A DNA stretch of 64,000 bases from Pachyseris speciosa (lineage: Eukaryota; Cnidaria; Anthozoa; Scleractinia; Pachyseridae): contig JAEMWC010000135.1 in assembly GCA_016490735.1 (NCBI GenBank), forward strand, positions 1,231,001 to 1,295,000, written 5' to 3'. Position 1 is the stretch's first letter, and each line of letters starts with the position of its first letter. Below the pieces are notes generated by a model. It was not told the DNA's origin. It saw only the letters and a program-made list of their open reading frames with translations, and did no database searches. Shown one piece after another: positions 709-38,600 of the stretch. The position numbers and the translations under genes were made by a program.

Positions 709-3700
709 CACCATATGACAGAAGGGTTGGATCTGTATGATGATGTTCTGACCACCAGAGGAGAGATGCCTGAGGGGACGGAAGATGAAGTATTACATAC
801 GCAGGTGGGAAGGACTAGAAACTCTGCACACTTTTTATTTGCTGGTATTTTGTGTCTATAAAACACCGGTGTTTACAGCACTTTCAAATCTGGGTACTAT
901 TTGAGTACTATAATTCTGATGTCTGTGCTCGAAACTCATTATCATTAAATTACTACATCTAACTGATCTACCTTCAGGATAATGGTTTGGGTTTCATTAT
1001 GGCAGTGTACAGCATTCAAGGGTTGAATTTTGTACTACTATAGGCCATGTGCACGAAGTTGGTGTACAAAGCAAAAATAGCAAAAACTTGGTGTAAAATT
1101 TGTTTTAGAATTGCTGTATTTTGCAAAATATTCATTTTTGCTCTTAAATATATACACCATGACAAAGCAAATTTTATATAGTTCATTAAAGAGTACAAGT
1201 TTGGTTTTAAAATGTCTCAGAAGAGCCACAGAGAGGAAAAATACTAACTGCTCCTGACATACAATCTGGAATGCCTCATAACAAATGAGCTCTTTTTTTT
1301 TCAGAATTTCAATCACGCCGATCACGCCTTCTGTTTGCTGTTTTGCCAATTTTGCCTTTGCATTTAACACGCTTTTAGCCTTTTTTGCATTTTTCCTGTT
1401 TTGCCTTTTTTGCTTTTTGCCTGTTTTGCCTTTCGTGCCTTTATCAATCGCGTCTACCCACAATGTAAACGCAAGTTTACAAAGCAGTGAATCAATTTGC
1501 ATACGAGTGCGTATCAAATTTCGCTTGAGTGCATTCCGGTTTCTTCGAAATAAATCATAATCAATCAAGTGTATCTTGCTTTTTATCCCTTTAAAAGGCA
1601 TGGAAATCCTTACCATAACTGTGCGGATCTAGTTCCTGTTGCTTCACGTTGTTTCATAAGTAAGGAACCCCGAATGGTTGCAAAATTTTAGTCGATCACA
1701 ACAGACATTTACAGTACCGGCCAGAGGGATTGTAGCATGTCCACGCATGTAAAATGCGTGTAATGCGTGTGTAATTTAAGTGGACACTGAGTGGGTATTG
1801 CATGGGCACTGCGTGGACACTGCGTGTAATGTTTGTGTAAAAATTGCGTGTAAAAATTGCTTTGCGTGTACTCATGGCATGCGAACATATTTGCCAAAAA
1901 AAGCAATGAAAACGTAAAGCTTGTGGGATGTGGCTGGAGTGACAAGGATACTTCACAAATTAATGTGATCAAGTAAGCTGAAGCCACTCAAAAGGCACTA
2001 AGGTCACATGGTAGTGGGCATTACCCCTTAAATCTACCAAAGCAAAGATTGAGCCCAAGCATTAGCAGCCATGGACAGCTGTTTCGGCCTTGTTAGGCCT
2101 CATCAGCATGGCATAGTTAATGCTCAGGCTCAAGTACCCACATATCAATAAAACAAGCAATGAAAACGTAAAGCTTGTGGGATGTGGCTGGAGTGACAAG
2201 GATACTTCACACATTAATGTGATCAAGTAAGCTGAAGCCACTCAAAAGGCACTAAGGTCACATGGTAGCAGGCATTACCCCTTACATCTACCAAAGCAAA
2301 GATTGAGCCCAAGCATTAGCAGCCATGGACAGCTGTTTCGGCCTTGTTAGGCCTCATCAGCATGGCATAGCTAATGCTCAGGCTCAAGTACCCACATATC
2401 AATAAAACAAGCAATGAAAACGTAAAGCTTGTGGGATGTGGCTGGAGTGACAAGGATACTTCACACATTAATGTGATCAAGTAAGCTGAAGCCACTCAAA
2501 AGGCACTAAGGTCACATGGTAGCAGGCATTACCCCTTACATCTACCAAAGCAAAGATTGAGCCCAAGCATTAGCAGCCATGGACAGCTGTTTCGGCCTTG
2601 TTAGGCCTCATCAGCATGGCATGGCTAATGCTCAGGCTCAAGTACCCACATATCAATAAAACAAGCAATGAAAACGTAAAGCTTGTGGGATGTGGCTGGA
2701 GTGACAAGGATACTTCACAAATTAATGTGATCAAGTAAGCTGAAGCCACTCAAAAGGCACTAAGGCCACATGGTAGCGGGCATTACCCCTTACATCTACC
2801 AAAGCAAAGATTGAGCCCAAGCATTAGCAGCCATGGACAGCTGTTTCGGCCTTGTTAGGCCTCATCAGCATGGCATAGCTAATGCTCAGGCTCAAGTACC
2901 CACATATCAATAAAACAAGCAATGAAAACATAAAGCTTGTGGGATGTGGCTGGAGTGACAAGGATACTTCACAAATTAATGTGATCAAGTAAGCTGAAGC
3001 CACTCAAAAGGCACTAAGGCCACATGGTAGCGGGCATTACCCCTTAAATCTACCAAAGCAAAAAGTCTCAGATAATTATAGCACACAACACTGCGAAATG
3101 GCTGTGCATGTTATTCGACACGCAGCGATCGATGTGCTACGGAACGTGAAATCAAAACAACTCGTAATAAAATAGCGAATTTCCATGTTACTTCTTCAAC
3201 ACTCAATTATTAAACGAACCTTAAGGATTGAAAGAAAGCATCTTACTCTTGTTGAGGGACGCTACTATTTCAGGAAAACTGCTGTGAGAGTCTGTTTTGG
3301 CACTCCGCAGTGGTTTAAAAATTTTGCACCCTTCCACGAAAGTTTGAGCGAAATTTCGAGCAAAAATTTTGCGGCATTAACAAATTTTAAAATAGCCGTC
3401 TGAGCTAACTAAAGTAGGCGGAAAACTGATGAAATTTTTTAAAAAGAGGTAAATTCTGACAAAGTAGGCGGCGATTTTCGCTGGTTGCCGGCTTCTCATG
3501 AAACCCCTGCTCCACTATAGCTTGAGCGAAATTCTGCGGCATTCTGCAATAGTTCGAGCGAAATTTTGCAACCCTCCACGACAGTTCTGAGCGAAATTTC
3601 ACGCCAATCCGCGATAGTTCAAGCAAATATTTTGAACCCCGCTATAGTTTGAGTGAAATTCTTTTCGCTTGCTGTAACGATACATTTATCTTGTTTCGTT

Positions 3701-6700
3701 TTATCTCCCCCGCATCATAAACATCTCATTCTTCAACAAACAGCGTGTGCTATTTTTGTCACCCGACGAGGGCAAATTTTTGTCACGTGCTAGGCAACGA
3801 ATTCTATCAATGGATCGGATTTCATTTTATCTTTTAACAAGTAAAAGTTCTCGTATGTTTTGTTTTGCATTTTGTAATGATCTCCTTCACAATAATGGTG
3901 TTCTCGGTAACCAGGCTGGCTTGCCTGCTCATAATGAACACAACAGATATTTTTTTTTAACAAGAAAAATATAGGAACAGCCTGGTCAATCGAGCTCAGT
4001 TCGTTTCGATTGTCTAGACGATCGGGCGCCGCTTATGTCTCATCTGTGGCTGTTTTTTTAATTCACGCACTTATCCTTGTCACGCAACTCTGTAATAAAA
4101 ATACCGAAGTTTGCAAATTAATCCTGTTTTCGACACCACAAATTGAGCGCAATACTTCAAGCTATCCTTCATGCCTTTTGTAAAACAGTGGGTTCGCTAT
4201 AAAACTCTCATTTGAAGAACGACAATGACAGAACACCGGCAAGGCGGTCAGCAAATAATACGGTAGTGTTTTGTTCTTGTTACAAGCAGTGAGTGAGTTC
4301 CAGGGGAGAGACTGTGTGTTATTTTACACGCAGTCACTGAGTGTAAAATTACACGCATAAAATGTATTTGCGTGGACACTGCGTGGGCAGTGCGTGTAAA
4401 GTGAGTGTAAGGTCCGTGTAAACTGCGTGTACTGCACGCACAATACACACGTGTAATGCTGCAATCCCTCCGGCCGGTACTGTAGCCGTTTCGCATCGCT
4501 GCACGCGTCTCGCAGTCGCCATCTCTTCACTAGGTGTTTTAGTGTCACGGTCAAAAGTAGCCAAAAAATTGCCAGTCTCTTGAATTTAACATTCACTGCC
4601 CTTTTTAGTCGTGGATACGCGAAAGCGTAGGAACAAGTATTGTGAGGGGACAGATTATGCAAATTTGTCACTCACTCAGATGTAAACAAATCGATATGCC
4701 AACGGCATACCAATAGATATCGATTTTCCGAAGTATTGCCGGAATACCTCTATCGGCTTTCCAAAGTAATGTCTGAGGAGCAACAGTCGAACCGATGAAC
4801 GGAATGAAAAAAGTAAAGTAAAGTAACTTTATTTCAGCTCGGATCGAAAGAAGTAAACAGCAAAAGGAACGTCCGATCAAACAGCCGAACGACGAAAGAA
4901 ATTATAATCAATATTCCGTCACAAGCGCAGCTTCTCCTTCGTTCCTCCAATTCACGATCTGTAGAAAAAATATATGAGCCATTCAACCCAAGATATTTTC
5001 TAAGTGTGTACAGGAATTGACGGCGAAAACTTTTGACACCAATATAGCTGCATTCGTGCGTTGGAAATAATATTCTAACGAAAACAATACAATCTAAAAT
5101 TAAATTATTTTTAGGTGGCGCCATCGCGTCTAGCCACAATGTAAACACAAGTTTGCTTTGAGAAATATTCTTTTTAACTAAACGCGCCACTTTTTCAGTA
5201 AAAGTTTTGAATGAAACTTGATTATTTTTATATCCAAAAGCATGGCGTCGATGGTTGTTTGTGAAAACGACGGCAAATGTTGCATTTCCGACCGGCAGTA
5301 AAAAGCATAATTTGCATATGTCAAATTTCAATTCGGTTGCGTTCACGTTCGTTCGACAGCTTTGTGTAACAATTTACTCGAAATACTGCAGTGTGTTGGC
5401 TGGGTTCGTTTTGGCAAAATCGTCCTTTCGCCTGATATTTATCCGACCCGTACGGACAAGACAGAAACCTTTCAAAAGGAGCACATTTTTTTTTAACTCC
5501 CACGATATCTCCCTGCCTCAATATGCTCGATATGAACCCCGAGGTTAAATTGTGTTAAGCTCATGAACAATAAAATTGATGCTCAAAAGAGCTGGACGTT
5601 TCGGAACGCATTAAAACGTTGTTTAAACACTTTCGAGAAAGAGTTTTCACCCGTTTAAACTAGTTAAAACGCCATTTTCTCGAGTCACCTTGGCTTAATC
5701 CCCCTTCTCGCAAATAAGGTCACAAATCCACAACTTCTTCACAGTTGTACTTTGATTATAAGTGTTTCTATTAATGCTGCTGATATTTGTTCTTAAAACA
5801 CTCTAAAATTACACCACAAAACATGGAATAAACATCTCAGATTCTTGTTGTGTATTTCATTGTCTTCTCTTATTACCAAGTGCTGTGCTGCTGGTGTAAA
5901 TAACAGTTTGCAGGACATCCGAAGACACGCTTGTACGTCCACCGTGTAGCGATACTTTGTTAACTTTTAAATGAGTGCTACTGGTGGAGATTCTGGCAAT
6001 TAAATCTGTGGTGTACGCTTTTCCCTTGTACCAGCCCTGCAGCAGTGCTAATTGTTTATTGATACTTCATTTCTGCAGCCCACTCCCCTTAAATATGTAC
6101 CAGTTGTTGTGCCATATGAAACAAAGTCGGAATAATAATAAATAAGAATTAGAGATATTTTCCCTCTCCTATTGCTTATTTATCGAGAACTTGAAATGGA
6201 ACTAAATAAGATACTCCGTTCGATGTTTGCTGCCGGATAAGAGTGAAACAAAAATGGTGAAAAACAAAAGCGAGGCACTGGCAAGCCAGACTTTTAAACT
6301 GCGCTGTTAAAGTGATTAACAAACAGGCAAAAAATGCAAAATGATCAGTTTGGCGTGATAGGCGCGATTGGCAAAATGTGCAGGAGGTGTGAAACGCGCG
6401 ATTGGCAAAAACACGAAGGCAAAAAGGACAAAAACAACTCGACGACTGAAACATAGGTGCAATAAGATGACATTTTTAGTTAAGAAAACTGGTGTCTTGC
6501 GCTAGTTTTTTAGTAATATTTTCTTCCAGGGAAATCGAAGGTAGGATTAACTTATACCACTTTAAAGCGAATTTTATGTGCATACTGTTTTCAACTTTTA
6601 TCAGGAAATTAGATTTCATGAATTTTTAAGAACAAAGAAACACTCATTCGCGTTGGAGGGAAAAAACAGCGAATACATCACTTTTTTGGGTGATGCGTTC

Positions 6701-9700
6701 TCAAAATTTTGTTCTGTCTCTTTCATATGAAATTAATCTGCATTACATGTAAATATCCATCCTTTCCAGTGCACATAGGCTGCAGTTTTACTCTGCAAAG
6801 TTACAAGACAACTTGTTTTTTAGTTTCTGATTAAAGCAATAAAAAGTAGCGTGAGACTGTTTTTGTGACTCAAATGTACACCAACTTCATGCACGTGGCC
6901 TATAACATCTTCATTGGCAAGAAAACTTTGTTAATGATTTCCCACTCTGTTTCTTGCTCATTGTTAATGTACATGTAGTCATAATGTTATTTTTTGGAAA
7001 AAGTACAACAGGCATATCATTAAAATGCTGTAAGGAATTTTTTTCAAGCACTGCAGCTTCCTGCAACTTTTCTTGCAGTGCCACCATACCTAGCTTTCAA
7101 TCATCACAATATTAGAATGCACAAAGCACAGGAAATAAAAGCAATCTTGTTTGTTTCCCCTTTCTTTTAGTATGAAGAAGATGTCACTGGTGTTGTAGCA
7201 CCGGAAATCACCCAGTCAGGTACATTTAGATAATAATCTTTTGAATAGTACAGCTGTCTGCATAGTGTTATGATTGTCTCATAATGACTTTCTTGGTTTC
7301 AGCAGCCTATGAATACAAGTCCTATACAACAGTCCATCCAAAATCAGCGGGTGCCCGATCTTCCAGCACCTATTATGAAAGACATAAAGGAAGACCACTT
7401 TATGTTGGCAATCTGACATGGGTAGGTTTAAGGATGTTGTTCATTGAGAGCAGTGCTTACGCAAAATCACAGTGATCACAAATTGCAAAAATCCCTCAGT
7501 AGTTCAGTTGCAAAGGATTGCAAACCTTCACCAAACAAAGGGGTGTATTCCCTCTGCGTACTTTTTGATTGGCTGAATGTAAGTTATAATGTGTTTTACT
7601 TATCGCATCACAGAGCATTGTTTTCCATATGATAACCAGGGCTGTCATTAGCTAGGAGCCATAACCCGTAACACCTGTTACAGCTGAGCTCAGATGGTTG
7701 CTTGGTAATTAAACAATGTTCATAGAGCAAGATCAGATGTTACAGCTGTATATGCGGTAACTCCCAGACAGCTGCCTTGCAATGACAAAATGTTGTTTTC
7801 CTGTGATTCCAGCTGCTTCAGCCAGATGGAAACCAATTTAAAGTCAGTTATTTTAGTGCTCACTGTGACCACTTCTCTTGTACGTGTATAGTGGACGAAC
7901 GATCAAGAGCTTACAGAGGCCCTTCAAGAGTGTGGTGTCACTGACCTGATTAACATCAAGTTCTTTGAAAACAGAACCAATGGTCAATCTAAAGGGTGAG
8001 TTGGAATGCTAGAAAGCATTATTATTAAAGAAACTGGGTAATTCTTGGTGAGTCCTTTGTAAAATTCCCTTTTATTTTACACTCCTTACCTCAAAGTTTA
8101 AGTGTTACAAAGTAATAAACTTTAAGCCTTTTGTAAGGTTAATGACCAACATTCTTAAGCATTGTGGGGAACTTTGATAAAAATTAATGTATGAAGTTTG
8201 TTTAGTAGAAGTGGAGTTATGCAGCGATTCTTGTCTGATATTTTATTTCAATACTTATTCATTTGCACTTTTTCGTTTCAAATCTACATGTATCTACACC
8301 CCTCTAAAGTTTTCCTTTGATTTTGGAATTGTCTGCTTAATAGCTATTGAATATAAGTTGTAACAGTGGACTGTTTGCCAGTTTTGACTGCCACTTCTGA
8401 AAAACAAGTTTTTTCACAAAACCAGTGTGTTTGATCAAGTCTCTACATAGTGACAGTTTTTAGTCTTCTATAGTGTAAATCAGTTCCAGACCTGAAAAGA
8501 TGATGCCCATTACTTTTCACTCCTACCCAAAAGAATTCAAATTTCAAGGACAAGTTGTTGAGACAAATAATTAAGAATGGCTCCCCAGCCAGGTCTACTT
8601 TTTTTTAGCTGTACAGAGTTATGCATTTGGATTGTGGTTAAAATACCTCATTTTCAGTATGAAGAATGCACACTGTCATTCTGTGTTCTCCTTAGAAGGG
8701 GTTTTTGTTAGTTGTTGTTAAACATGGTTCTCAACTATATTGAATAGATATGCACCCCTCAGCCCTTTGATCCATTTTGATCTCTTCGAAATATCAGGTC
8801 ACTGCTTGTTATAAAACTCCTACTTAGACAAGAAACGTTGCCTCAAATTGTTTCTCCACCAAGGTGTTTAAATACATACTGAATGTTTGGGGATACTAAC
8901 CAAACAGCTAGGGAGGTACCCTGTGATTCAGTTGCATCGCATCCACAGGGTGGTTCAGTACTCCTGGTCAATTCTTGTTACAGAATTAAAGGTATATTCA
9001 GGGTTGCCACATTCAGGAAAAAAAAACAGGGGAAAGGAGATTGTTTTCAAGGTTAGGGAAAAGTCAGGGAATTGTGTAAATTCTACCTGAAAGTGAGTGA
9101 AAAGTCAGGGAATTTTACTTTTAGCTAGCCATCAGTTTAAGAAGGAGATTCATTGTTAGTAAAGGTAACATTGTTTCAATATAATCCCTGCAAAGAAATA
9201 TTGATTTCCATGGCTCCATTGAGGGCTTTGTTGCCAAGGTTTTGTCTTGGATGGCCAGTGAAAATTGGTTTGTGTTCAGTGAAAAGTTAAGGAAATGCCA
9301 GGCAATATTTTCTATCCCAATGTGTGGCAACCCTGAAATTCCCATCATGACCCCCACCTCTGCCCTGGGGGTGACATCACGTTCTGCCGACTGTTTACTG
9401 ACTCTCTGTTACCTATACTCACAGTTCTGCTATTGAGTGACAACGGATAGCAGTGCCCACGTTCTGGGCATGGGATCACACAAGGAAGAAATGAAAACAC
9501 CCATCAAAGAAAACTCCTTAGCTATTGAAAATGTTGATTGCAGAAAAAAATTGTATTTGAGTGCCCTTTGTCAAAAAAATTAATGACCACATGAAAATTT
9601 GTAACAAAATGCAGAAAATATCCAAGTTGAATTTGTAAAAGAGAGAGTAATATTTCTGTATTATAAATAGAAGAAATCTATCAAGTTTAAAATTGCATAT

Positions 9701-12700: not shown

Positions 12701-13732
12701 AGCAGTTTGAAGCCCAGTCAAGAAAAAGTAAGAGTGTTAATGATTTACAGTACGGTCATCGTCTTTGTACAGAAATGTCTGTCAAAAAGGCACATCTTTG
12801 TAAGTTAAACCTCTCACTAAAATGGGCACCTTTCAAAGGCAACACCTCTTGGTATTGTTTTATTCTTTACAGAACAGAGAGCTCTATGGGAAATACAATC
12901 AGACTGCTGTGGGCTTCAATTTATAGTTTTTCCTTTTACTTTTCTCTCTTCTTTGTTTTGTTCCTAGTATTCTTCTACCATCCTTTTTTCCAGTTTTATG
13001 AAAGTTTCATATTTGTTTTACACCCTTAACAGAGGTTTCAGTAGAATCCGGCAACTGGTGAAAATTGCCGCCTACTTTGTCAAAATTCACCTCTTACCAC
13101 CGCCTACTTTGTCCATATTTTCACTCTGTTTATTAAAAGAGTCCATCAGGTTGCCGCCTACTTTATTTAGCTCAGACAGCAATTTCAAAACTTATTGAAA
13201 CCCCTGCCTTAAGAGGGACACACTTGTAACATTTAGATACAGACACCCTTCTAAGATAGATGCCCCTCTAAGATAAATTGAATGGGCTCACTTCAAAGCT
13301 TGTCCATGCATATACATGTACAGTGAACTTCCTTTAAAGCAGACACTTATAGGACCAGCTCTTAGTGTCCACTGTCAGAGAGGTGTCCACCTTAGTAGGA
13401 GTTTTAGTTGGGCAATTCAGCAGGGGCCAGGTGAAGGTGTCTGCCTTAGAGAGGTGTCTGCCTTACAAGTGTATCTGCATTCACTGTACAGTTGTTTTAA
13501 GCAGAGTAAAATCTATTTTAAATGTATAAAGGGGGTTAGTTTCTAAAGAAACTGTGGTGCTGCGTCAGTGGGGAAGTGAAATGCGAAAATTTGGTTTACC
13601 AATGGAGTTGATAATGTAAATTGACCACTGTACGAGGATTCAAAAAGCTGACATTTCGAGCATTAGTCCTTCATTAGAGCAAAAGGGCTAATGCTCAAAA
13701 CATCAGCTTTTTGAATCCCTGTACAGTGGTCG

Positions 13733-16700: not shown

Positions 16701-17720
16701 GACCTTTCCTAACACCTCAGGGGCTATGATTTCCCCTTTGCGAATCTTTTAGGCCTCATTTCAGTTACTAAAATCGACCCAAGTGCACTCTTTAAATCGA
16801 CACCAAAAGCCAAAGGCAAACTACCTTCCTCTGAACAAAACTACCAAAACTTGCCGTTGGGTGCCCCCTATGTATACCTGACTGTAATACCACATTTTGA
16901 TTAATTTTAGACTTTCTTGAGTTACAGCAAGAAATACACTGATAGCGACATAGAATGTGGAGAATTGCCATTGGATTTTGGACAACTAGTCCATCCAATT
17001 TCAATGGTGTAGCTTAGATCCTATCCAGAAGGAATACCGTTACTCCTGACAGAGCCTTTCACAATAATATTTCTGATGCCATCTTGGGTGAGATACAAAC
17101 CCAGCCTAAATTCTGGGAAGTTTTTAGGAAGTGGGACAGTGGCGCTAAAGTTTGAAAAAAGCTCTATTCCAATGGGCCCTTTGCAGCTGGTTAGTCACAG
17201 GGTAAAAAAATGCCATGCTGGAGGGCAAGCAACACACTGGGACAAAACAAGCAAAGAAAATTACCATTTTAAATGATGTAAACTCTTTGTTTATCTTGTC
17301 CCAGTGTGTTGCTTGCCCTCCAGCATGGCGGTTTTGTACCACGTCACTGACCAGCTGCAAAGAGCCCATTGGTCAGCATGCAGTCATTTTCAAGATGATG
17401 TCATCTGTCTTTACTGGCTTATTCTATTTTGCAGGCATGGTTCCACAGTTTGCAAAGCCCCCTGTTGCACCACATGTGAATCCGGCATTCTTCCCTGAAG
17501 GTCCTCCTGTAAGTTAATCATAAACCATATAAATTGGAGTCTATGTACATGTCCCTGGGGTGAAATGTCAAGAGCATAATCGCCGCCAAAACCTTTTTTA
17601 CCTCTGAAGGAACGTGGAAAGTTAAATTGTGTAGGTTCGAGTGAGGCCTGTAACTTCTGTCTTGCTGAAATTAAAAGTCTGAGGTTTTACAAGACAAGCC
17701 AGACAGACAGACAGGCAGGC

Positions 17721-22444: not shown

Positions 22445-24307
22445 TTAACTCATTTCCCCCCGGCCCTTTAAATATCGTTCCTCCAGGAACGATACGCAAA
22501 AAAAATATTAAAAAATTGCGTTACTTCCGATTGCTTCCAATTTTGGCACACAGGATGCTTATAGATTTACCAATCACAGGGCCTAGTTTCATCCCATATA
22601 AGGTAGTGGTCGCCGGAAGGTGAATTTTTGAATTTGGGAGTATCATGGCGTCCGCGAGCAGGAGATCGCGAACTGAATTATTCGGTCGTGATGAGGTCAT
22701 GCGACAGTTACATTTATTGGATGACGACTTTGAAGGCATGTCTTCAGGTGAGGAGAGCGATTTAGATCACCAGCTTTACGATCTAGATGAAAATTCGAGG
22801 TAAGCGAACAGTCACCTTCAGAACGTCACATTTGCATCTGCTGGACAATCGAGTGTGAGGCGCCACGCAGCTCTCGGAACAGTTCACAGGATTGGCTGAG
22901 AAAACAATAAACAACAGAAACAATGGACCCTAGCCCTGAAAGAATGGAGCTGCGTGGTAATAAGAACCAATGAAATTAGAGGTTACTGAGAGGTGCGTGG
23001 CATCTGTCGAGTGTGTTGTCTTGAAAATACATCGATATGCGATTGAAATCATCTTTTTACGTTCAAAAACCTGCCAGTTAGTTGAAATAGTCTCCCAAAT
23101 GTATATCTGCGTGGTCAAAGCTGGATAAATTTGCGAGAAAGTAAAGATTTTGATGTCCAGAGTAATATTTTTTGATTCACTCGTAAGGACGCGAAAGTCA
23201 CGTGGGGACGCGAAGGCTGCGTGGGACGCCAAAGTATCATATATCACGCACTAGTTTTTATTTGTTTCATTGGAATACTGCAGTCTTTCAACCTTTTTTG
23301 TTTGTTTCTCTGTGGAGAGAGCATTTATCTTTGTGTCTTTTCTCTGGCCAAATAATTTACAAGGCTTTTTGATGGTCAGTGATGAATTTATTTGGTTTAT
23401 GTTTATGTTTGTTATTTATAGTTTCTTTACTTGTTTATTTTGATTATGAAAGTGATGATAGTGGTGATGACACTAGTGCAGATGTTCCTGACACCGGTGA
23501 AGATATTCCTGTGGTGTTGCCTGCTCCTATGGGACCTGCAACCTTCCTAATGTAGACACAGACAAACATTTTTTCAAATTTTATTATTATTTTTTTTTTT
23601 GCATTGCGGTACTTGTGGCAAATAATATTCAAAAACCTAGTCACTGTTGGTTGTCAGGGGTTTAGGAGGGCTTTTTTTCGTCATTTTATAATGTTCTCAT
23701 GTAAGTCCCCCATGTAGACACACCCAAACATTTTTTGAATTTTTTTGTTTTTGGCCTTTTGTGCCATGAGGTACTCATAGCTAACAATATTCAAAAACCT
23801 TGTCAGTGAGGGTTGTCAGCAGTTTAGGAGAGCTTTTTTCATCATTTTATAACCTTTTCATGAAAATGCCCCCATGAGACAAACCCAAAAAATTTTTGAA
23901 AAAAAAAATTTGTTTGGCCTTTTTTTCACCATAAGTAGGTGTTACTGAAAATGATGCAGAAAATCTTGTTTTTGTTTCTTTTCAGGCAGATTTGGTGGCC
24001 TTTTTGCCAATGAAACAAGGAAAAATGTTGTTTTTATCTTTTTACTGTAACACAACTTCATGTAAGACAAAGTGACTTTTTCCTTGAATTTGTTTGCATA
24101 AATTATGCAAATTACGTTCCTTCTGAATTATTTTTACAAACTGTAATGGACTTCTGGAGGAGAAAAGGAGTGTTTTCCATAGCTTTTTTATTCCTCTTTC
24201 AAATGAGGTATAGCTTTGCACACTGCTGTAAATACCTGTGGAGATATCAAATAAAATGTAAATGTCGCCAATTTTGCCTGTTTTTTGGACGGGGGGGAAT
24301 GAGTTAA
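22445..24307 (+). mobile_element. piggyBac-like element, decayed or non-autonomous
   Basis: TTAA (22445-22448) followed by CTCATTTCCCCCCGG, and GGGGGGGAATGAG followed by TTAA (24304-24307), form inverted termini with the piggyBac-type target duplication. A perfect hairpin ATCGTTCCT-CC-AGGAACGAT sits just inside the left end. Inside is a possible reading frame from ATG 22645 encoding an acidic start (MASASRRSRTELFG ... GEESDLDHQLYD) with a GTAAGC donor near 22801, and an acidic frame DDSGDDTSADVPDTGEDIP at 23451-23555 ending in TAG. These resemble the acidic N-terminus of piggyBac transposases. The catalytic core is absent. Confidence 0.65.
23551..23950 (+). repeat. About 158-bp tandem repeat, 2.5 copies
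   Basis: Three imperfect units begin with CATGTAGACACACCCAAACA-like words near 23551, 23710 and 23868, each followed by AATATTCAAAAACCT and GGTTGTCAG. It fills the interior of the piggyBac-like element. Confidence 0.7.
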
Positions 24308-25725: not shown

Positions 25726-26619
25726 AACGTGGCACATTTATGGGAAATTCAGCTCCATCTATTTTTCTAGCTCTTTCCGCGTTTCCATACTGAATATAAT
25801 GAGAAGATATGAGGCGATATTGTGACATAAATTTCCTTGTTAGCTGCACCTGTCACCTGGGTTAACCTTGTGAACGACACTTAGAACAGATAGACAAACA
25901 AAAGCTAGCAAATAAAAGCCTTTTGTCACTTTATTCCATAAAAGCAAACTGCCTTCCCTTCCCTTTCCTTGCTTCTCCCTGGGCCGAGTACGATTAAAAT
26001 ACACAGATTATCAATTTAGCGGGGCTTGTGCTGCCCTCTCAAACCTTACAAAAGAGTTCTTTGAAGTTAATGTCGATTGAGACAGAAAGTTTCGTATCTG
26101 GTAACAAATGCGAACAACTAATCAGTATAAGAAACAAAATGCAAATGTAATAATGGTTCGTCTTGAATATTATATTAAATTCCGGACTGACCTGTCAGAA
26201 GACAAGACACGAATGAGGGCGACAAAACACCCGTATTCCATGGTTAGAATTATTTATTTTGAAAAGAAGTCATAATAATAGATCAGGAGAGGCCCCACGC
26301 AAAGTTCAAGGTGAGAAAATCGTTTTCGAAGACGTTTACGGGACCTCGCAGTTATATTTACGTTTCCTGCTGAGAGAAGAAATCCGCCTGAAAGTTTATG
26401 ATTTATTTATAATCCTAAAACTTAACTTTCAAATTTTTGCAGAATATTTAACGAGTAACAACCACGCAGTTGCTATCTCGTTGCTAAGCTAACAAGTCGA
26501 AGTCAAGAGCGGCTACAAGGTTTATAAGGCTGTGAAGAAACAGGTACCGTGTTTTTTTCTACAGTTGTGAAAGGTGAAGCTGTTTGCCGAAAGCGTTTGT
26601 TTGACTAAACGTGAACAAA

Positions 26620-29600
26620 ATGGCTTCGTCGATAATTGCAGGAGTAAACGTCGAAGACATATCAAGGCATTTGAATTGCAAGTTGTGTAAAAGACTGATT
26701 CGAAGCCCGAAACTTCTACCATGCTTACATTCATTTTGCCAAGTGTGCGTGGAAGGTCTCGCTCAGAAACTCGCTCCAAATGAATATCTGGTCTGCCCGC
26801 TCTGCAAAACGGACGCGAAAGTTTCACGGGAAGAAGTAGACGACTTGCCAATAAATTTTTTTTTGGATAACATGTTGGATATAGCGCTCATAAATTCGAG
26901 CGATCGACAGCCTGTACCTTGTTCGAACTGCGACTCAACAAATCCGGCGACATCGAGATGCGTCGATTGTGGGGAATTTCTCTGCCAGAATTGCTATGTC
27001 GTCCACAAAAGGATCCGTCAGACAAAAGATCACAAGATTTTGACGATTTCCGAACTTCTTGAGAGTAAAACAGGTGAAGATTTGCATCGGCCAGCGTTCT
27101 GTGGAATCCATCGAAGCGAGCAACTAAAATATTACTGCGAGACGTGCAACCAGGCGGTTTGCAGGGACTGCGTTTTGATCGAACATCGTCAGCATAAATA
27201 TAACTACATAAAAGACTGTAAAAAGATACATAAACAAAGAACCACCTTAGAAAGCTTGTACGAGCAATGCGAGAGGAACGTTCCAATGCTGGAGAAGTCT
27301 ATTAGAGAAATACAAAGAATTTCAGATACCTTGCACGGACGGCTGGTGACGGTGAGAGCTGAGATTCGCGAAACTGCTCTACAGCAGATTAAAGTTATAA
27401 AGGAGCAGGAAAGAAAACTTCTGGCGGAAGTGGAGAAAATTCACAACGCGAAGTCCACTATTTTACGGCGACAAAAGGAACATCTTGAAGAAGATTTCAC
27501 GCGGTTTAAAGCTGGCTGCGACTTCTCGGAGCAGGTTTTGAAATACGCCAATGAAGTGGAACTGCTGTCGCTAAAAGAGCCCATCACACAAAGGTTGACT
27601 GAACTGAACGAAACAGAGCTAGATTGCAAACCACAAGAAAACTCTGAGATTAAATATGAGGTGAATAACAAAGAAGCTGAAAACACGGTGTCTCAGAGTC
27701 TGGGGAGTTTGAAAAGTAGTGGCCCACATTCGACGCTGGAAGATATTGAGTTCCCTGCAACGAATGGAAGTGCGAGTGAGTCAGAAGATTTCGCTTCGAA
27801 GGAAGCGCCAATATCCGTAGAGTTGAGAGACACAAGCGGGGTTATGCTTCCCCCCGAGACAATTCTTCAAGGTAAAGGTTTTTCTTTCACTTACTGTTAA
27901 AGAAAAATAATACTGTGAAGGTTTTTGTTTTAGTGTTTCAGCATCTTTCCCGCCTCTTGTTTTTAACATGCACGTAATCTCTTGCAGAAGCGGTTAGTCA
28001 ATTAACGATTTTATTTGTTTCGAAAAATCCTTCATTTGTGATTATAGCAAACAGGAGCTAAGAAGGCTTTCCAATAAAATTCAAGCTCTCAGTTCAAACC
28101 ATAAGTTGTGCGTGATAATTTTAAAATCGATATTAATTATTGAGAAAACTAATAATGTTGCATTTTCCGTTTCAACGGAAATTGATACATAGCCGATATG
28201 AATCTATCCTCTTTGCGGGAAACAATCGGAAATTAATTGAATTGTCTCCACTTCCCTGAATGCAACTAATAAGCTCTTTCTTCAAAGAATATTAAATTCA
28301 GAGCAGTCGTACTTTTTTCCCGGGATCACTTGCCCGAGCAAGTTGTGCAAATAATTAGCGAAGAGAATGCGCGCTACAGAACTACAAGGCACGCGCAGAG
28401 ACTGCGAGCAGTCTAGCAAAAATTGATCAAAAACAGCGGGTAAAAAAAATTGATGCAACGTGTTTTATTTTTCTTAGTAATGAATATTTCAGCTACCTTG
28501 CAACTAAGAAAAGGCCAAAGTGGAAAAAGAAACAAAAAGATAACTGAAAACTTTTGAGAAGTTTCACTATGCATATTACCAAAACTGCGTAGGTGTCCCA
28601 GATAATTTTAGATCTGTACCCCAGAACGTAAGAGCCTTGCCAACAACGAAGTAGAAGGCTTCCAATAATTTCATTTTCATTAGCGTAGGGTTCAGAGGCT
28701 AGAGGCCCTTGTTACTGCTCTTGGAATTAGCAGGGCTAAGGGGAAAGAATATTTCGGGTAGCTAAACTACGCGAGTAATTGAAGTTAAGTGTAATGAACA
28801 CTATATCGAGGCTTTGTATCAAGTGATTAACCTGATTCTTTCTGATTCGCCAAGTCGTTGCTTAGCAATTACGTCATTAACCTTTACACGTGGGCGGTAT
28901 AAAGATAGCTTTAGCGGCATATTCCCACCAGTAGTTTAGCTTAAGCTCATCGTGCACAGTACGTGTGTTAAGTAAAATTAAGTTTAAGCTACCCTTGGCT
29001 ATTTAGAGTGCAAGCGGGAATCGATGTGTAAGTACAAATTATTTTCTATGCTCGTTTTCTGGTATAAGTTTTCAAGTTTTACGTTTTGGACTTCTAGTAC
29101 CTTTAGTCTCGGTTTTTTATACAACAGCCTAATTGTTCTAAGTCCACCACGTGGCAGCGCCCCAGCTTTTAAAGTTTTCATTCCGTCTTGTTTTAGTGTT
29201 AAATCTTTACAGTTTATATGCCCCTAGTTTAAGTTTCTATTTAGCGGCTTCCTATAAGAATCTCTGGTAATTCAGTTCAAGTCCCTTTCATGCTCGTTAA
29301 CTCCCTCATCGCTTGCAATGGCGCTCACGCAAGCATGCTTTTATAGCATCGTGCAATTTTATCGTTTTCAAGATTTTACAGTGTTACCATTTATTGTAAC
29401 TAGGACTGTTAGCAGTACGTATATCTGCTTGGGATCATTGATGATTTTAATTGTATCTTTTCTGAGAAGTATGACTGGAAAGTATTGTCACACCGCAATT
29501 ATGATTGGAATGTTTGCTACTTTTGATTCGTGACTCTTGTCATCTTGTAAGCTTTTATTATCAAGTAATTAGTTTATTGCATTGTATTTCAGTTTACGTT

Positions 29601-32600
29601 CGATTATCGTCAATTAAATCACCGTCAATCACAGCTGATTTTCCGTGATCTCTGGCTTTATTCGATTAGTAAAGCATCTCCCACATCACACGCTTATCTC
29701 ATCGCGACAAGTTGTTTCGCAAGTGACAGCCTTTCAGCAATCGCCGTGAACCTGGCGTTACAGTAAAACATCGAACTTGTTCTAAATTCGTCATCGGTAT
29801 TCCAGTACTTGTTTGAACTTTGAGAACGTAACAAACAATGAGCATCGCATCCGCACCGGAAGATCTGACGTCGTCGTTTCTTAATGAAGACTTAGAAAAT
29901 GTCGTGCCCGTTTTCCAATGAGAACTCAATGTCAAAATTTCAAAGCGAAAACAGAAGTTCTCAGAGAAAGGAAAGAGCTTTTTAAAGGAACTGAGAGCAA
30001 AAAGAAAGGAAACAGCTTTCCGAAATCTCAAAAGAAAGTTAGATCACAGTAAGGAACTACATGAAGATCCGGAAACGGAATTAGAAGTTTTGGAAGTCGA
30101 ACGCAATGAATTAGATTCTTTAAAGGATGCTTTTAACCAAGCTTGTTACACACACGAAAGTCTGCTGGATAGTCCTGCAGATAAAGAAGAATCCTATCAG
30201 TGGTATGACGTTAGGGATCGAGAATTTACCGAACAAAGAATGAAGCTTTGCGAACAAATCCAGCGCCTTGAAAAGGGATCGCTTTTCACCAAATCTAGCG
30301 CCTCGTCGAGCCATAGATCAAAGGTAAGATCCAAGTCATCTAAAGGGTCGACTAGGTCCTCTTCGCGTTCCGTTTCACAAGCTAGAGCGGACGCCGCAGC
30401 AAAGGCAGCCAAAGTTAAAATAGAAATGAAATTTCTGGAAAAGGAAAATGAACTCAGGCGCATTCAACTAGAAAAGGAGTACGCGCTCGCAAAAGCAGAA
30501 GAAAGCGCGTTCAAAGAAATTCTAGATGAAGAGTACAAATTAAACACACAAATAAAACAGGAGATTAAACCGGAAGATAAGAAGATAAGCCTCCAACAAT
30601 CAACAGCCGTCACGACAAGAATTGAAAAACAGGAAATGAATCCGAACGGCCCTCCCTTTGTGCCTAAAACGATTCCGGATAACTTTGGCCAGCAACCAGC
30701 AAATAGTATGCAGAACGTTGAACGATCATCCAGTATAAGTCTCGCCCTTAATCAACTGGTCAACCTTCAAGCCCAACAAACGGAATTAAGTTCAGCGCTA
30801 GTCAATCAACAAAGGACCTTTCACCTCCCCGTTAAGGAGCCTCCGACATTTTCTGGCAACTCATTCGAATATCCGACTTTTGTGACCGCATTTGATAGTA
30901 TTATCGCCGCCAACGTCCCCCTCGATAAGGACAAATTGTTCTTCTTAGAAAAATATACGACCGGCAAGGCCAACGAAGTGGTTAAAGGTTTCCTAGCAAC
31001 AAACTCAGACACCGCCTACAGTGAAGCCCGGAAACTGCTCGATCGGCGTTTTGGAAACCCTGTGGTGGCAGCCGAAGACTACAAAAAGAAACTTAGAGGT
31101 TGGCGACAGATCAGTGATGGCGATAGCAAAGGACTGGAGGAGTTCTCTGTTTTTTTGGTGCGCTGTGAAGAGGCTTTGAAGACTATGAAATCTATGTCGG
31201 AGCTGGATTCTACTCAGATCCTACAGTCCATCTCCACTAAGTTGCCGTCGTATTCGGGCGTCAAGTGGTGTAGATCCGCTCACGAGACTCAGGTAAAGGA
31301 AAAGAGGCTCGTGCGCGTTTTACGGACTTTGTCAAGTTTGTCAAACAGGAAGCCGAAGTAGCAAACGACCCGATCTTTTCTCCAGACGTATTTAAGAGAG
31401 AAAGGAAAAGGAACGTCCCGGCTAGAGACAACCACCGTGGCACAAGGTTGAAGTATCAAGAAGGAACCAATCCAAGTCAATCACTGGTCACTTCTGCCAC
31501 TCCAGTAGACCATTCCGAACAACAGCAATCAGCAGCCACATCGGGGCGCGAGCAGTCCTGCCCAGCCTGCAATGACAAACATACAATAATGAAGTGCAGC
31601 AATTTCATCAAGGCCACTGCAGACAAGAGGTTGGATCTCATCGTCGAGAAGCGCCTATGCTTCAGATGCTTCAGGGCAGGTCACATTTCCTCTGACTGCA
31701 CATCCAAGCAAACCTGTGGTGAATGCGGAAAGCGTCACAACACCTTGCTACACGGAGCGACTCTAAAGACAAAGACACACAGCGAGCAAACTCCGTCAAG
31801 CACTCAGGCGTCACGCAATCCACCCCAACCCTTGCAGCCAGCCCATGCTGCCGAGTCTGCACACTCAAACGCAGCCAGCGTCGCCCACAGTTCTGTCGGT
31901 ACATCGGACGTCACCATCATGTGTCGAATCGTACCCGTAGTCCTGTACCATAAGGATAATCCCAGCAAGGAAATTAAAACGTACGCACTTTTGGATGACG
32001 CTAGTGACACGACTTTCGTGACAAATAAGGCGAAGAGCGAGCTTGGAGTTGGGGGAGTCGACACAAGTCTCAATTTAAGCACAATGCACGGTCGCAAAGT
32101 AATACCTGTAACCCGAATCGACGGATTGATAGTGGAGCGCCCCGATAGACGCGCGCAGGTCGAACTCCCTAAGGCATATGCAAGAGACATAATCCCATCC
32201 AGAAAGGACCAAATCCCAACCCCAGCAGTAGCAGACAAGTGGCAACACCTGAAGAAAATAAGGGACAAAATACCTCCGCTAGACGAAAACCTTGACGTTG
32301 GAATACTGATCGGATCCAACTGCCCGAAGGCGATCAAACCAAAGGAAGTCATAGCTGGTAAAAGCGAAGATCCATACGCAGTTCGTACACTCCTTGGTTG
32401 GTGCATAGTCGGACCGGCCAATCTTTCAGAGACCCACCTAGACGAGGACGGCGTGGCAGCGTGCAACAGGATTATAGCGCACGAGAACACGCCCGAAACA
32501 AGCCATGTTAGCTTTATCCTGGAAGACAAGACAAAGGAAGTTATAAACCCCTGCTATGTAAAGCAAATGCTTGAAATGGACTTTGCGGAGAATAAGAACT

Positions 32601-35600
32601 CGACTCATCAAGGTCTCTCTAAAGAAGACAGGAGATTCCTGAACATTGCAGAGACGCGCATACACAGACGTGACGATGGCCATTACGAACTTCCACTCCC
32701 GTTAAAGGAAAGTTTCAATGGTCTCCCTAACAATAGAGATGACGCTGTCCGACGCATGTACCCTATCAACAAACGGTTTATGTCGCCGGGTAACGAAGAA
32801 TATAAGGAAGAATATATGAAGTTCATGGGAGACATGATTGAAAACGGCTACGCCGAAAGGGCTCCACGCAATGCTGACGCGAAGCCCGGCATGACATTCT
32901 ACATTAATCATCACGGAACAAGACATCCGAATAAGAAGTTAAGAATAGTTTTCAACTGCAGTCAAGAGTACAATGGTGAATCCCTGAACAAGAATCTATT
33001 GCAAGGTCCTCTGCTGACGAACAACCTTACTGGTGTCTTGATGAGATTCCGACAAGAGCCCGTTGCTGTGACATGCGACATTGAGGGCATGTTCCATCAA
33101 GTCCACGTCAATCCCGAGCACCGTGACCTGCTTCGTTTCCTGTGGTGGGAGAAGAACGATCTTTCTAAGGATCCTGTAGACTACCGCATGACAGTTCACC
33201 TGTTTGGCGCGACGTCATCACCAAGCTGCGCCAACTTCGCGCTCAAGCAAACCGCGAATGACTTCGAGGGAGAATACGGTGAACAAGCAGCCAACTTCAT
33301 GCGAAACGATTTATATGTAGACGACGGTTTAAAGTCAGTCGATACAGCAGCGTCAGCAGTAGAATTGGTCAAGAATGTAAAGGCCATGTGTCATCAGGGA
33401 GGATTCAACCTTCACAAGTTCTTGTCAAACAGCAAAGAGGTAATCAAGAACATCCCCGAGAAAGACAGAGCAGAGGGAGTTAAAGAGATAGACCTAGACC
33501 TGGACACACTTCCTTTAGAACGCACACTAGGAGTTCAATGGTGCGTCGAATCTGACAGCTTCGAATTCAGCGTCGTCCTGCAAGACAAACCATGCACGAG
33601 ACGAGGTATTCTGTCGACCGTGAGCTCTATATATGACCCTATAGGCTTTGTAGCCCCCCTCCTGCTTCAAGGAAAGTCGATACTGCAAGAATTATGCAGT
33701 CTCCATTTGGACTGGGACGATCCAATACCAGAAGACGCGAAGATGAGATGGGAGAAGTGGAGAATGGAACTGATGAAACTACAGAGCATCATGATTCCTC
33801 GATGTTACAAGCCTAAAGATTTCGGCCAAGTCGTCAGGGCAGAGCTGCATCATTTCAGTGACGCGAGCGTTCGGGGCTACGGCCAGTGTAGCTATTTACG
33901 TCTTGTAGATGATGCCAACAAAGTTAACTGCGCTTTCGTGATGGGAAAATCACGTGTAGCTCCTCCCAAACCTGTAACCATCCCGCGACTCGAGCTAACC
34001 GCCGCTGTTTGCTCCGTACGAATAAGTCAACAGATTCATCGCGAGCTAGAATATCGGATCGATAAGGACTTCTTCTGGACGGACAGCAAAGTTGTACTTG
34101 GGTACATAAGCAATGAGAGCAGACGTTTTCACGTTTTCGTTTCTAACAGAGTACAAGAGATACAAGACAGTACCCATAGAAGCCAATGGCGGTATGTTGA
34201 CACTAAACAGAACCCAGCAGACGAAGCGTCACGTGGAATGAAGACCGATGAGCTCCGACATTCGCGGTGGATTCTGGGACCAGAGTTCCTATGGAAAGAA
34301 GAAGGCGAATGGCTGAACAGTGACGAACAAGAACATACCTTGATGAACGACGACCCGGAGGTCAAGAAATCCGTCGCCATGGCAACATCCTTAGACGACC
34401 AAAGAAAAGCCAGTCTAGAAGAAAGAATCGAGCGTTTTTCCGACTGGTACCGAGCACGGCGAGCAGTAGCACTCTGCTCGAAGTACGTCCAGAAACTAAG
34501 GAAACGCGTGAACAAAGAACCAAGCGAAGTGGTTCAAGTGTCAGCTGAAGATTTGGAGGAGGCAGGAAGGTCGACCATTCAGGCCGCGCAGTCCAAAGCC
34601 TTTCAAGATGAGTTTAAGTCAGCTGCAAGAAAAGCAGAAGAAGAGGGATCCTTCCCGAAGCAGGAAAGTGCGAAGCTACGCAGTTAAATCAACAAGTTGG
34701 ATCCGTTCATCGATGAATACGGAGTCCTACGCGTTGGCGGTCGCCTCAAGCACACAGACCTCTCAGACAAGGTGAAGCATCCAATAGTCCTACCCAAAGG
34801 CAGCCACGTGACCAGCCTTATAATTAAGTATTACCACGAGAACAGCAAACATCAAGGCAAAGGAATAACGCTCAATGAGATTCGATCCCACGGCCTTTGG
34901 ATCATTGGAGGTTCGTCCGCTGTGAGTTATGTCATTGCTTCCAGTTTGACATGTAGGAAGCTGCGAGGTGCCGTTATTGAGCAGAAGATGTCTGACCTTC
35001 CCGAGGACCGACTAGAAAGCTGTCCACCCTTCACATATTGCGGCGTAGACTATTTTGGCCCATTTACGATTAAAGAAGGGCGCAAGGAGCTAAAACGCTA
35101 TGGAGTCCTATTCACTTGTATGTCGTCAAGAGCTGTCCATCTAGAGACCGCAGCGTCTCTGGACACAGACTCCTTCATAAACGCGTTGAGACGCTTCCTA
35201 AGTCGTAGGGGCCCAGTGAGACAGCTAAGAAGCGACAATGGAACAAATTTCGTAGGAGCCCGTCGAGAGCTCAAAGAAGCTTTAGAAGAAATGGACGAGA
35301 GCCGTATTAAGGAAGAACTTCTAAAGTCACAGTGCGACTGGATCAAATTCGAGATGAATGTTCCAGCCGCAAGCCACATGGGCGGAGTATGGGAGAGGCA
35401 AATAAGGACGGTGCGCTCAATCCTATCCTCGCTTCTCTCTAACAATGGTAAACAGCTGGATGATGAGTCCCTGAGGACGCTGATGTGCGAGGCGGAAGCA
35501 ATAGTCAACAGCCGCCCCCTCACCACCAATCACCTTTCAGACCCAGATTCGCCAGAACCGCTAACCCCTAATCACTTGCTGACAACGAAATCCAAGATTC

Positions 35601-38600
35601 TATTCTCACCACCCGGAAAATTCGAGCCAGCCGACATGTACGCCCGCAAACGCTGGAGACGCGTGCAACACCTCGCCAACGAATTCTGGACCCGCTGGAG
35701 AAAGGAGTATCTGTTAAGTCTCCAAGAACGACAGAAGTGGACGCGGCCTCGTCGAAATCTACGCGTCGGCGATGTCGTGATGATCAAGGACACCAACCTG
35801 CCACGGAACGCGTGGCAACCTGCCCGCGTCGCCACGATATACCCAAGCACGGATGGCCAAGTCCGCAAAGTGCAAGTGGCCCTAGCGGATGCCTGCCTGG
35901 ACAAAAGGGGAAGGAGGTCTGGACCTATGCGGTACCTGGAGAGACCAGTACAGAAACTGGTACTTCTTGTACCATCCCCTGAGTAGACTGAGACCGGAGT
36001 AGTCCCGGCCGAGGAGCCTGCTGCCAACCATGAACTGTAACGTTAATTTTCATGATAAATATAGCTTATAAACATTGTGGACATTGAACATTAGTTAGTT
36101 ACATCAACAGTGATTAGTGAAATATTTGGATATTTCAGGGGAGCCATGTAATGAACACTATATCGAGGGTTTGTATCAAGTGATTAACCTGATTCTTTCT
36201 GATTCGCCAAGTCGTTGCTTAGCAAATACGTCATTAACCTTTACACGTGGGCGGTATAAAGATAGCTTTAGCGGCATATTCCCGCCAGTAGTTTAGCTTA
36301 AGCTCATCGTGCACAGTACGTGTGTTAAGTAAAATTAAGTTTAAGCTACCCTTGGCTATTTAGAGTGCAAGCGGGAATCGATGTGTAAGTACAAACTATT
36401 TTCTATGCTCGTTTTTTAGTATAAGTTTTCAAGTTTTACGTTTTGGACTTCTAGTACCTTTAGTCTCGGTTTTTTATACAACAGCCTAATTGTTCTAAGT
36501 CCACCACGTGGCAGCGCCCCAGCTTTTAAAGTTTTCATTCCGTCTTGTTTTAGTGTTAAATCTTTACAGTTTATATGCCCCTAGTTTAAGTTTCTATTTA
36601 GCGGCTTCCTATAAGAATCTCTGGTAATTCAGTTCAAGTCCCTTTCATGCTCGTTAACTCCCTCATCGCTTGCAATGGCGCTCACGCAAGCATGCTTTTA
36701 TAGCATCGTGCAATTTTATCGTTTTCAAGATTTTACAGTGTTACCATTTATTGTAACTAGGACTGTTAGCAGTACGTATATCTGCTTGGGATCATTGATG
36801 ATTTTAATTGTATCTTTTCTGAGAAGTATGACTGGAAAGTATTGTCACACCGCAATTATGATTGGAATGTTTGCTACTTTTGATTCGTGACTCTTGTCAT
36901 CTTGTAATCTTTTATTATCAAGTAATTAGTTTATTGCATTGTATTTCAGTTTACGTTCGATTATCGTCAATTAAATCACCGTCAATCACAGCTGATTTTC
37001 TGTGATCTCTGGCTTTATTCGATTAGTAAAGCATCTCCCACATCACACGCTTATCTCATCGCGACAAGTTGTTTCGCAAGTGACAGCCTTTCAGCAATCG
37101 CCGTGAACCTGGCGTTACATTAAGAAAGCGAATTGTGGTAAACACAATCGTAGAATAAGCATAATGTCACTTTAATGCTCTCTTTCCCATTGATTCTTCG
37201 GCATTATTCTACAGTAAAACGGCACTAAGCTGCTCCATCTGCATGAAGCGTGAGGGAGGAAAGTTTCTCTTTCAATGACTCCTTATAATTAAAGCTAGAT
37301 ATCAATTTTGTCTTCACGAAAACGTCGTACATGTTTTGGTACCGATGATGATATTTCTGACTGAACCAGGGATCGTTCCTTTTCGGGCTGGCCATTACTT
37401 TCGCAAATTACTGATTAGAAAGGTCCGAAATTTCTTTCACGTATTACTGCATCAATAAAGCTAATAAAAAAAAATTAAAAACAAAAATTAGCCTTACTTA
37501 CGGCGGGTCGCTACTTTCGGAACTTGACTTCGAAACTTTCGCGATCTACGGCAATTAATTTATGCCATCACACGGGTGCATTAGTTTTCACGCCGGCCAT
37601 GAAAACGAATATCGTAAACATTTTCATAAACGTTTACTTTAAACCTCGTTTTCTCGAATGATAAAGTTGAAACTGTTATCAGAAACTGATAGTTGCTTAA
37701 AAGAGCAAACTTTTCACAAAATCGGACGAAATTTCCCATGAGAAATGCCGATGAACGTCGTTTAGTATCCTTGTGAAACTTAAAATGTGTTGTCGGTTTT
37801 GCAGTTAATTACGTTCCTTCATTTGTGGAAAACTAGCAGTTGGGAATTATTCCATTAAAGAAATGTTCTCTGGATAGGTAAAGGGAATAAAAGGCTTTTC
37901 ATTTACCCGCCAGGTCCCCATTCATGAGTATTCGTTCTTAAGAAAGAAGATTTCCGGGCCCTCTGCGCTTGTGCACGGAACTCAGCTGTCCGAACTCTGC
38001 CACTCTTCTTAAAATTTCCTTCTGTGTGGAGGACAAACTGAACGGTTCGAGTGAAAACTGGGAAGATTTTTCTCAAGGTGTTTGACCTTCTTTTACCTGA
38101 TATAGGGGGGAAAGGCCGAGGAAAACGAAGAAAGATTTCATGAAAATTGTTCTTTTCACCTTTAGTGGCTCGTAATCTTTTAAATATAATGTACTGAAAA
38201 TTAATGTACCGTAAAAGCTCTATTAAGCCCCCCCGGGGGGGGGCTTATTTAATTTCAGGCCTTATTAACTGGGGGGGGGGCTTATTGGAGAGAGGGGCTT
38301 AATAGAGAGGGGGCTTATTTCAAATCTTTGAACACGCCGTTTTCGTGTTAAATAGTTTTTGTACAAATTTCAAACAACTGCAGTGAAACTTAAGTATTTA
38401 ATACCGAGCAGGAAACACACTCACTCACTCACTTGGTCGCCCGAAGGCGGGCAACCACTAGATCTTTCCACAGCCTCTTATCAGCCTTCAGTGCTGCCAT
38501 CTCACATGCATCGAATGCCCCAGTATCCCTCTTAAGAGTGTCAATATAGGTAGTTTTCGGTCTTCCTCTCCCGCGATGACCATGATGACTAATTTCTGGG

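Follow-up and report, generated by a model that had tools for sequence, protein, structure and literature searches.

The locus

The window analysed here, a 64,000-nt stretch of a Pachyseris speciosa contig, carries towards its start a minus-strand array of 254-bp units with type I hammerhead cores, enclosed by a putative transposon. These features are listed below, in positions of the window.

1896..3062, minus strand: probable retrozyme array, from Tandem Repeats Finder (254-bp unit, 4.6 copies, 98% matches) and copy alignment
2836..2868, minus strand: core of hammerhead copy 1 (type I), with a 5′ product end predicted at 2835
2582..2614, minus strand: core of hammerhead copy 2 (type I), with a 5′ product end predicted at 2581
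2328..2360, minus strand: core of hammerhead copy 3 (type I), with a 5′ product end predicted at 2327
2074..2106, minus strand: core of hammerhead copy 4 (type I), with a 5′ product end predicted at 2073; stem I with one A-C mismatch
1712..4482 (2771 bp), no strand assigned: putative non-autonomous DNA transposon around the array, from its inverted ends

Copy alignment places the array edges at about 1901-1903 and 3062-3063. Together with the repeat finder it bears out the strand, span and 254 period given in a preliminary description of this DNA, and unit alignment returns the same four predicted 5′ ends. When the array is cut at the predicted cleavage site, three complete units of 254 nt each are obtained, differing pairwise at 1, 4 and 5 positions, with a GC content of 0.449-0.461. 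The longest stop-free stretch in the array, over the six frames, is 59 codons. No further copy of the 254-bp unit was found in the 64-kb window at E 1e-3, and a tRNA scan gave no match.

The ribozyme motif

On the minus strand, the 33-nt core (CTGATGA, GGCC, TAACAA, GGCC, GAAAC, AGCT and GTC in succession) has the same letters in all four copies and includes each element that had been reported for every unit, namely CTGATGA, the GGCC/GGCC stem with its TAACAA loop, GAAA and the GTC triplet. All four sites derive from a single repeated unit and so represent one independent motif, not four. With a loose pattern (CTGATGA, 4-30 nt, GAAA, 2-14 nt, GTC), four matches are obtained over both strands of the 64-kb window, all of them in the array, where 0.25 would be expected by chance and none of 100 shuffles gave four. 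A still looser pattern has 37 matches against 14.4 expected, 16 in the array and 21 outside it, the latter by letters alone. Neither the exact 33-nt core nor a looser core occurs in viral contigs, nor a 26-nt core in bacterial and archaeal contigs, results of little weight given that these collections do not hold coral genomes as such. Strings of 21 nt from the core have no match in literature text, in which only the 12-nt CTGATGAGGCCT was found, in four papers with non-ribozyme titles.

Comparison with the Rfam covariance model of the type I hammerhead (RF00163) gave a match over 45 of 45 positions in each of the four copies, always on the minus strand, at 33.9 bits and with an E-value of 3.9e-6 in the 2.1 kb searched or 1.2e-4 across 64 kb (some lower-scoring overlapping matches of the same clan are left out). 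The gathering score of 34 is missed by 0.1 bit, and a search at the default threshold returns no match. Among other models, SNORD25 falls over the cores with 16.7 bits, far too low against its cut-off of 39, and several micro-RNA models that beat the hammerhead E-value in the 64 kb are all far under their own cut-offs.

Direct pairing gives a stem I of 6 and 16 pairs around one 3/1 internal loop, a stem II of GGCC/GGCC closed by the hexaloop UAACAA, and a stem III of two pairs closed by the palindromic tetraloop AGCU. In three copies all 22 pairs of stem I are standard; the copy with its cleavage site at 2074 has 21 of 22, the remaining position being the A-C mismatch. The internal loop (UAU or CAU against U) and the hexaloop are in place for possible tertiary contacts between loop 1 and loop 2. 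Two earlier statements about the stems are hereby corrected in part: stem I does pair over about 22 bp in both strands, but with a single internal loop (3 nt against 1 nt) and not several, and the stem III sequence ACAGCUGU does pair between two copies, yet one copy alone can also form two pairs and a tetraloop. Since stem III can form in one copy, pairing rules allow that a single-copy (monomer) hammerhead may be active.

Variation among the copies

Eight positions vary among the copies within 1901-3062, none of them in the core. At four of the eight, no state is confined to a single copy, and the states of site 43 occur with those of site 70 in all four combinations. Repeated copying of a single RNA circle, followed by private mutation, does not yield this last pattern; exchange or conversion, mixed templates or repeated mutation may account for it.

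The putative enclosing transposon and the array ends

The inverted ends of the putative transposon (1710-1738 and 4456-4484) are 93% identical over 29 nt and 82% over 51 nt (E 3.6e-8). They start with CAGTACCGGCC, have TA outside on either side and are adjoined by TGCGTGTAA-like repeats. The array starts and stops inside a unit, away from the cleavage site. No target-site duplication above the random level is found at its flanks. Their longest common word is 6 nt (equalled or beaten by 132 of 2000 random pairs), and for near-repeats of 8, 10, 12 and 15 nt, 377, 318, 279 and 270 of 400 random pairs, respectively, do equally well. This argues somewhat against a recent clean insertion, though metazoan retrozyme duplications (>4 bp) are described in PMC7229834 with the words 'when present'. 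The array may have entered the transposon later or the two may have travelled jointly, either course fitting a single locus.

Several other repeats lie nearby. A 30-nt inverted pair (1039-1068 and 6875-6904, 93%), 5.8 kb apart, encloses the host transposon, and a 32-nt direct pair (94%) is located at 1447-1478 and 5123-5154; together they are possibly the traces of a further nested element. Degenerate tandem repeats of about 33 bp (TGAGCGAAATTTTGC...) occupy 3319-3660 beside the array, and sequences 79-85% similar to the part immediately following 3379 recur at 13030-13196.

Other features of the window

Frames of a BEL/Pao-type LTR retrotransposon extend over 29922-35986 (zinc knuckle, reverse transcriptase, Pao peptidase, integrase core and DUF5641). 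They lie between a RING/B-box frame (26605-27900, plus strand) and an NHL-repeat frame (40639-41262, plus strand). A protein search with the frame at 26.6-27.9 kb gave 69 rows; the best match is an unnamed protein (91% identity), and the best named ones come from Stylophora pistillata (a TRIM71-like protein, 75%) and Nematostella vectensis (53%). These matches point to an anthozoan host, most probably a stony coral. Because TRIM71-like relatives (e.g. P0012) join both parts in one protein, the RING/B-box and NHL frames may be parts of a single gene whose intron contains the BEL/Pao element.

Long, near-perfect MITE-like hairpins are seen at 17174-17368, 40158-40296, 42619-42709 and 51574-51733, and the sub-threshold micro-RNA model matches at 17.2, 40.2, 42.6 and 51.6 kb fall on them, on both strands in the first three. 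Two more tandem repeats were recorded, at 23550-23900 (162-bp unit, 2.2 copies, 79% matches) and at 41619-41735 (41-bp unit, 2.9 copies, 97% matches).

Predicted folds of one copy, two copies and the circle

Energy rules leave out the tertiary contacts that hold hammerheads together, and the values below are to be read with this limit. In a single copy the hammerhead is predicted at -39.8 kcal/mol against an optimum of -47.2 that is not a hammerhead, the core GCUG being paired in the alternative fold with the stem III CAGC. As ACAGCUGU is self-complementary, two copies can share a stem III of eight pairs. The resulting double hammerhead has -95.5 kcal/mol, and the two-strand optimum (-98.3) consists of those helices with one extra pair per stem II.

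Controls weaken the case that these values make for action in pairs. The gap between hammerhead and optimum for the AGCU loop (-7.4 kcal/mol) is the 16th largest among 256 loops, with a median of -4.8, and the Rfam consensus, too, has a better fold that is not a hammerhead (-12.8 against -7.8), with a stem III probability of 0.0002. For each of the 16 palindromic loops, the double hammerhead is more stable than two single-copy optima combined, and the margin for AGCU is the second smallest (95.5 against 94.4). In the optimum of a 901-nt transcript with four cores, all four are in the single-copy alternative fold. These controls lend no support to the idea of an AGCU loop designed specifically for pairing.

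Circular folds of the three units have energies of -89.7, -87.5 and -80.8 kcal/mol, whereas base-shuffled sequences (60 per unit) average -60.5, -59.5 and -58.5. Of their bases, 64-65% are paired, and the hammerhead is absent from these folds.

Interpretation

Taken together, these data favour, with a probability of about 0.85, the view that the array is a metazoan non-LTR retrozyme, that is, a non-coding, non-autonomous element in a stony coral genome. A retrozyme or ribozyme-bearing satellite, as first proposed, remains the best reading of canonical type I hammerheads in tandem 254-nt units devoid of a long open frame in an anthozoan genome. It is supported by the full-length match to RF00163 in every copy, by the architecture of the ribozyme (a 22-bp stem I with an internal loop, a hexaloop on stem II and a 2-bp stem III with a palindromic tetraloop) and by a core kept constant in all four copies while eight other positions vary. 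The unit falls within the 170-400 nt published for metazoan non-LTR retrozymes, and unit size, ribozyme type, lack of coding capacity and a GC content below 50% agree with the text of PMC7229834. Further support comes from the circular folds, far more stable than their shuffled counterparts (-80.8 to -89.7 against -58 to -61 kcal/mol), from array edges lying inside a unit, as would be expected if a circle had been copied, and from the anthozoan host, since circular-RNA retrozymes are proven in Acropora millepora.

Several points count against this reading: the RF00163 score 0.1 bit below the gathering score, the pattern at sites 43 and 70 that simple copying of one circle does not give, and the single array seen in the 64-kb window. 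The non-hammerhead optimum of a single copy also does, though the Rfam consensus behaves alike. No outstanding target-site duplication is seen, against duplications of 15 bp at Nematostella arrays in an extract of PMC4918200; the paired fraction of the circles (0.64-0.65) falls short of the 'above 70%' that the same extract states for metazoan repeats; and the GC content of two of three units is just over the '<45%' of one figure legend in PMC7229834.

By analogy with published relatives, a minus-strand transcript of the array would be cut by each hammerhead after GUC, and two copies in one transcript could build a double hammerhead through the self-complementary stem III. The RNA of the element probably cuts itself in this manner and closes into small circles, and a circular RNA of 254 nt, as anticipated in the preliminary description, is a likely product. 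Circles would then be copied into tandem DNA at new sites by the reverse transcriptase of another, perhaps Penelope-like, element, again as proposed for relatives, and units could have been mixed during or after insertion by exchange, conversion or template switching, unless one site mutated twice.

Other explanations differ mainly in the part assigned to the transposon and in whether the ribozyme acts at all. The array might be a passenger satellite, an internal tandem repeat of the 2.77-kb inverted-end transposon that spread by cut-and-paste and grew by unequal exchange, with a ribozyme that is a relic or makes circles that have ceased to transpose. The well-matched inverted ends enclosing the array, the absence of an outstanding target-site duplication at the array itself and the variants common to several copies, which fit exchange in a satellite, are in keeping with it. 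The proposal is nevertheless unlikely: insertion into the transposon and carriage by it look alike at one locus, none of the four cores is damaged, and the arrays of this type published from animals act as retrozymes. A somewhat less probable variant makes the DNA transposon the carrier of a circular-RNA factory, in which multimeric transcripts would be cut mainly by paired ribozymes through the double hammerhead, and the released 254-nt unit would refold through the GCUG-CAGC pairing between core and stem III and be unable to recut itself. Its odds are lowered because the AGCU controls show no special design for pairing; if true, paired cutting and refolding would explain how the circles of animal retrozymes escape their own ribozyme.

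A dead or chance hammerhead-like repeat that does not cleave is more doubtful still. The score just under the Rfam threshold and the different fold predicted as optimum for one copy would suit it, but every core base is present, stem I reaches 22 bp, only 0.25 loose-pattern matches are expected per window and none of the eight variable positions falls in the core. Penelope-like elements also carry tandem type I hammerheads, according to an extract of PMC7761336, and the array could on that ground be taken for a pseudo-LTR of such an element with minimal tandem hammerheads. This is highly improbable, as the minimal variants described in that extract are devoid of helix III or of loop-loop contacts, whereas the array has a formable stem III, an internal loop in stem I and a hexaloop. 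Moreover, no Penelope-type protein appears in the 10 of 34 open frames scanned, among which the two nearest the array have no Pfam match, and the reverse transcriptase found is of BEL/Pao type.

As a metazoan retrozyme, the array would add a well-preserved anthozoan example of such elements. PMC7229834 leaves open how the ribozyme is kept silent in circles and which enzyme moves the elements; on the first point, the array offers a testable guess, namely paired cutting and single-copy refolding. The nested locus is also of value, since comparison of filled and empty sites could reveal how such arrays arrive.

Comparison with known systems

The comparison relies on PMC7229834 and on extracts of PMC7761336, PMC6155905 and PMC4918200. 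In Acropora millepora, 1508 canonical type I hammerheads occur in tandem arrays that range from dimers to 62-mers of a 220-240 bp unit; in vitro cleavage proceeds at about 0.8 per minute, circular RNA is seen on blots, and similar sequences exist in other stony corals (PMC7229834). Compared by description, the array resembles these stony-coral retrozymes in its canonical type I hammerheads, in its low GC content, in a tandem, non-coding unit of about 220-250 bp and in its anthozoan host; it differs in its 254-nt unit, in showing no clear target duplication and in lying inside a putative DNA transposon.

A short stem III with a palindromic tetraloop is already described for retrozyme type I hammerheads; most of those from invertebrates cleave efficiently, while amphibian ones need dimers (PMC7229834). 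The amphibian satellite retrozymes (newt, and axolotl HHR_Amex1/2) resemble the array in their type I ribozyme, very short stem III, palindromic tetraloop and dimer pairing, but have units of 330-350 bp and vertebrate hosts (PMC7229834). With two pairs, stem III of the array equals that of Amex2, versus one pair in Amex1, and its stem II has no U-U mismatch.

Penelope-like element hammerheads, as presented in the extract of PMC7761336, are likewise type I, tandem and located in retroelements, but are minimal, without helix III or loop contacts, and stand beside a reverse transcriptase gene. The plant LTR retrozymes, in the extract of PMC4918200, are also non-autonomous hammerhead elements and spread via circular RNA; they differ in having type III hammerheads, LTRs, a primer site, 4-bp target duplications and repeats of 400-1000 bp. 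By its description, the array is a well-preserved further example of a kind already known from corals and other animals.
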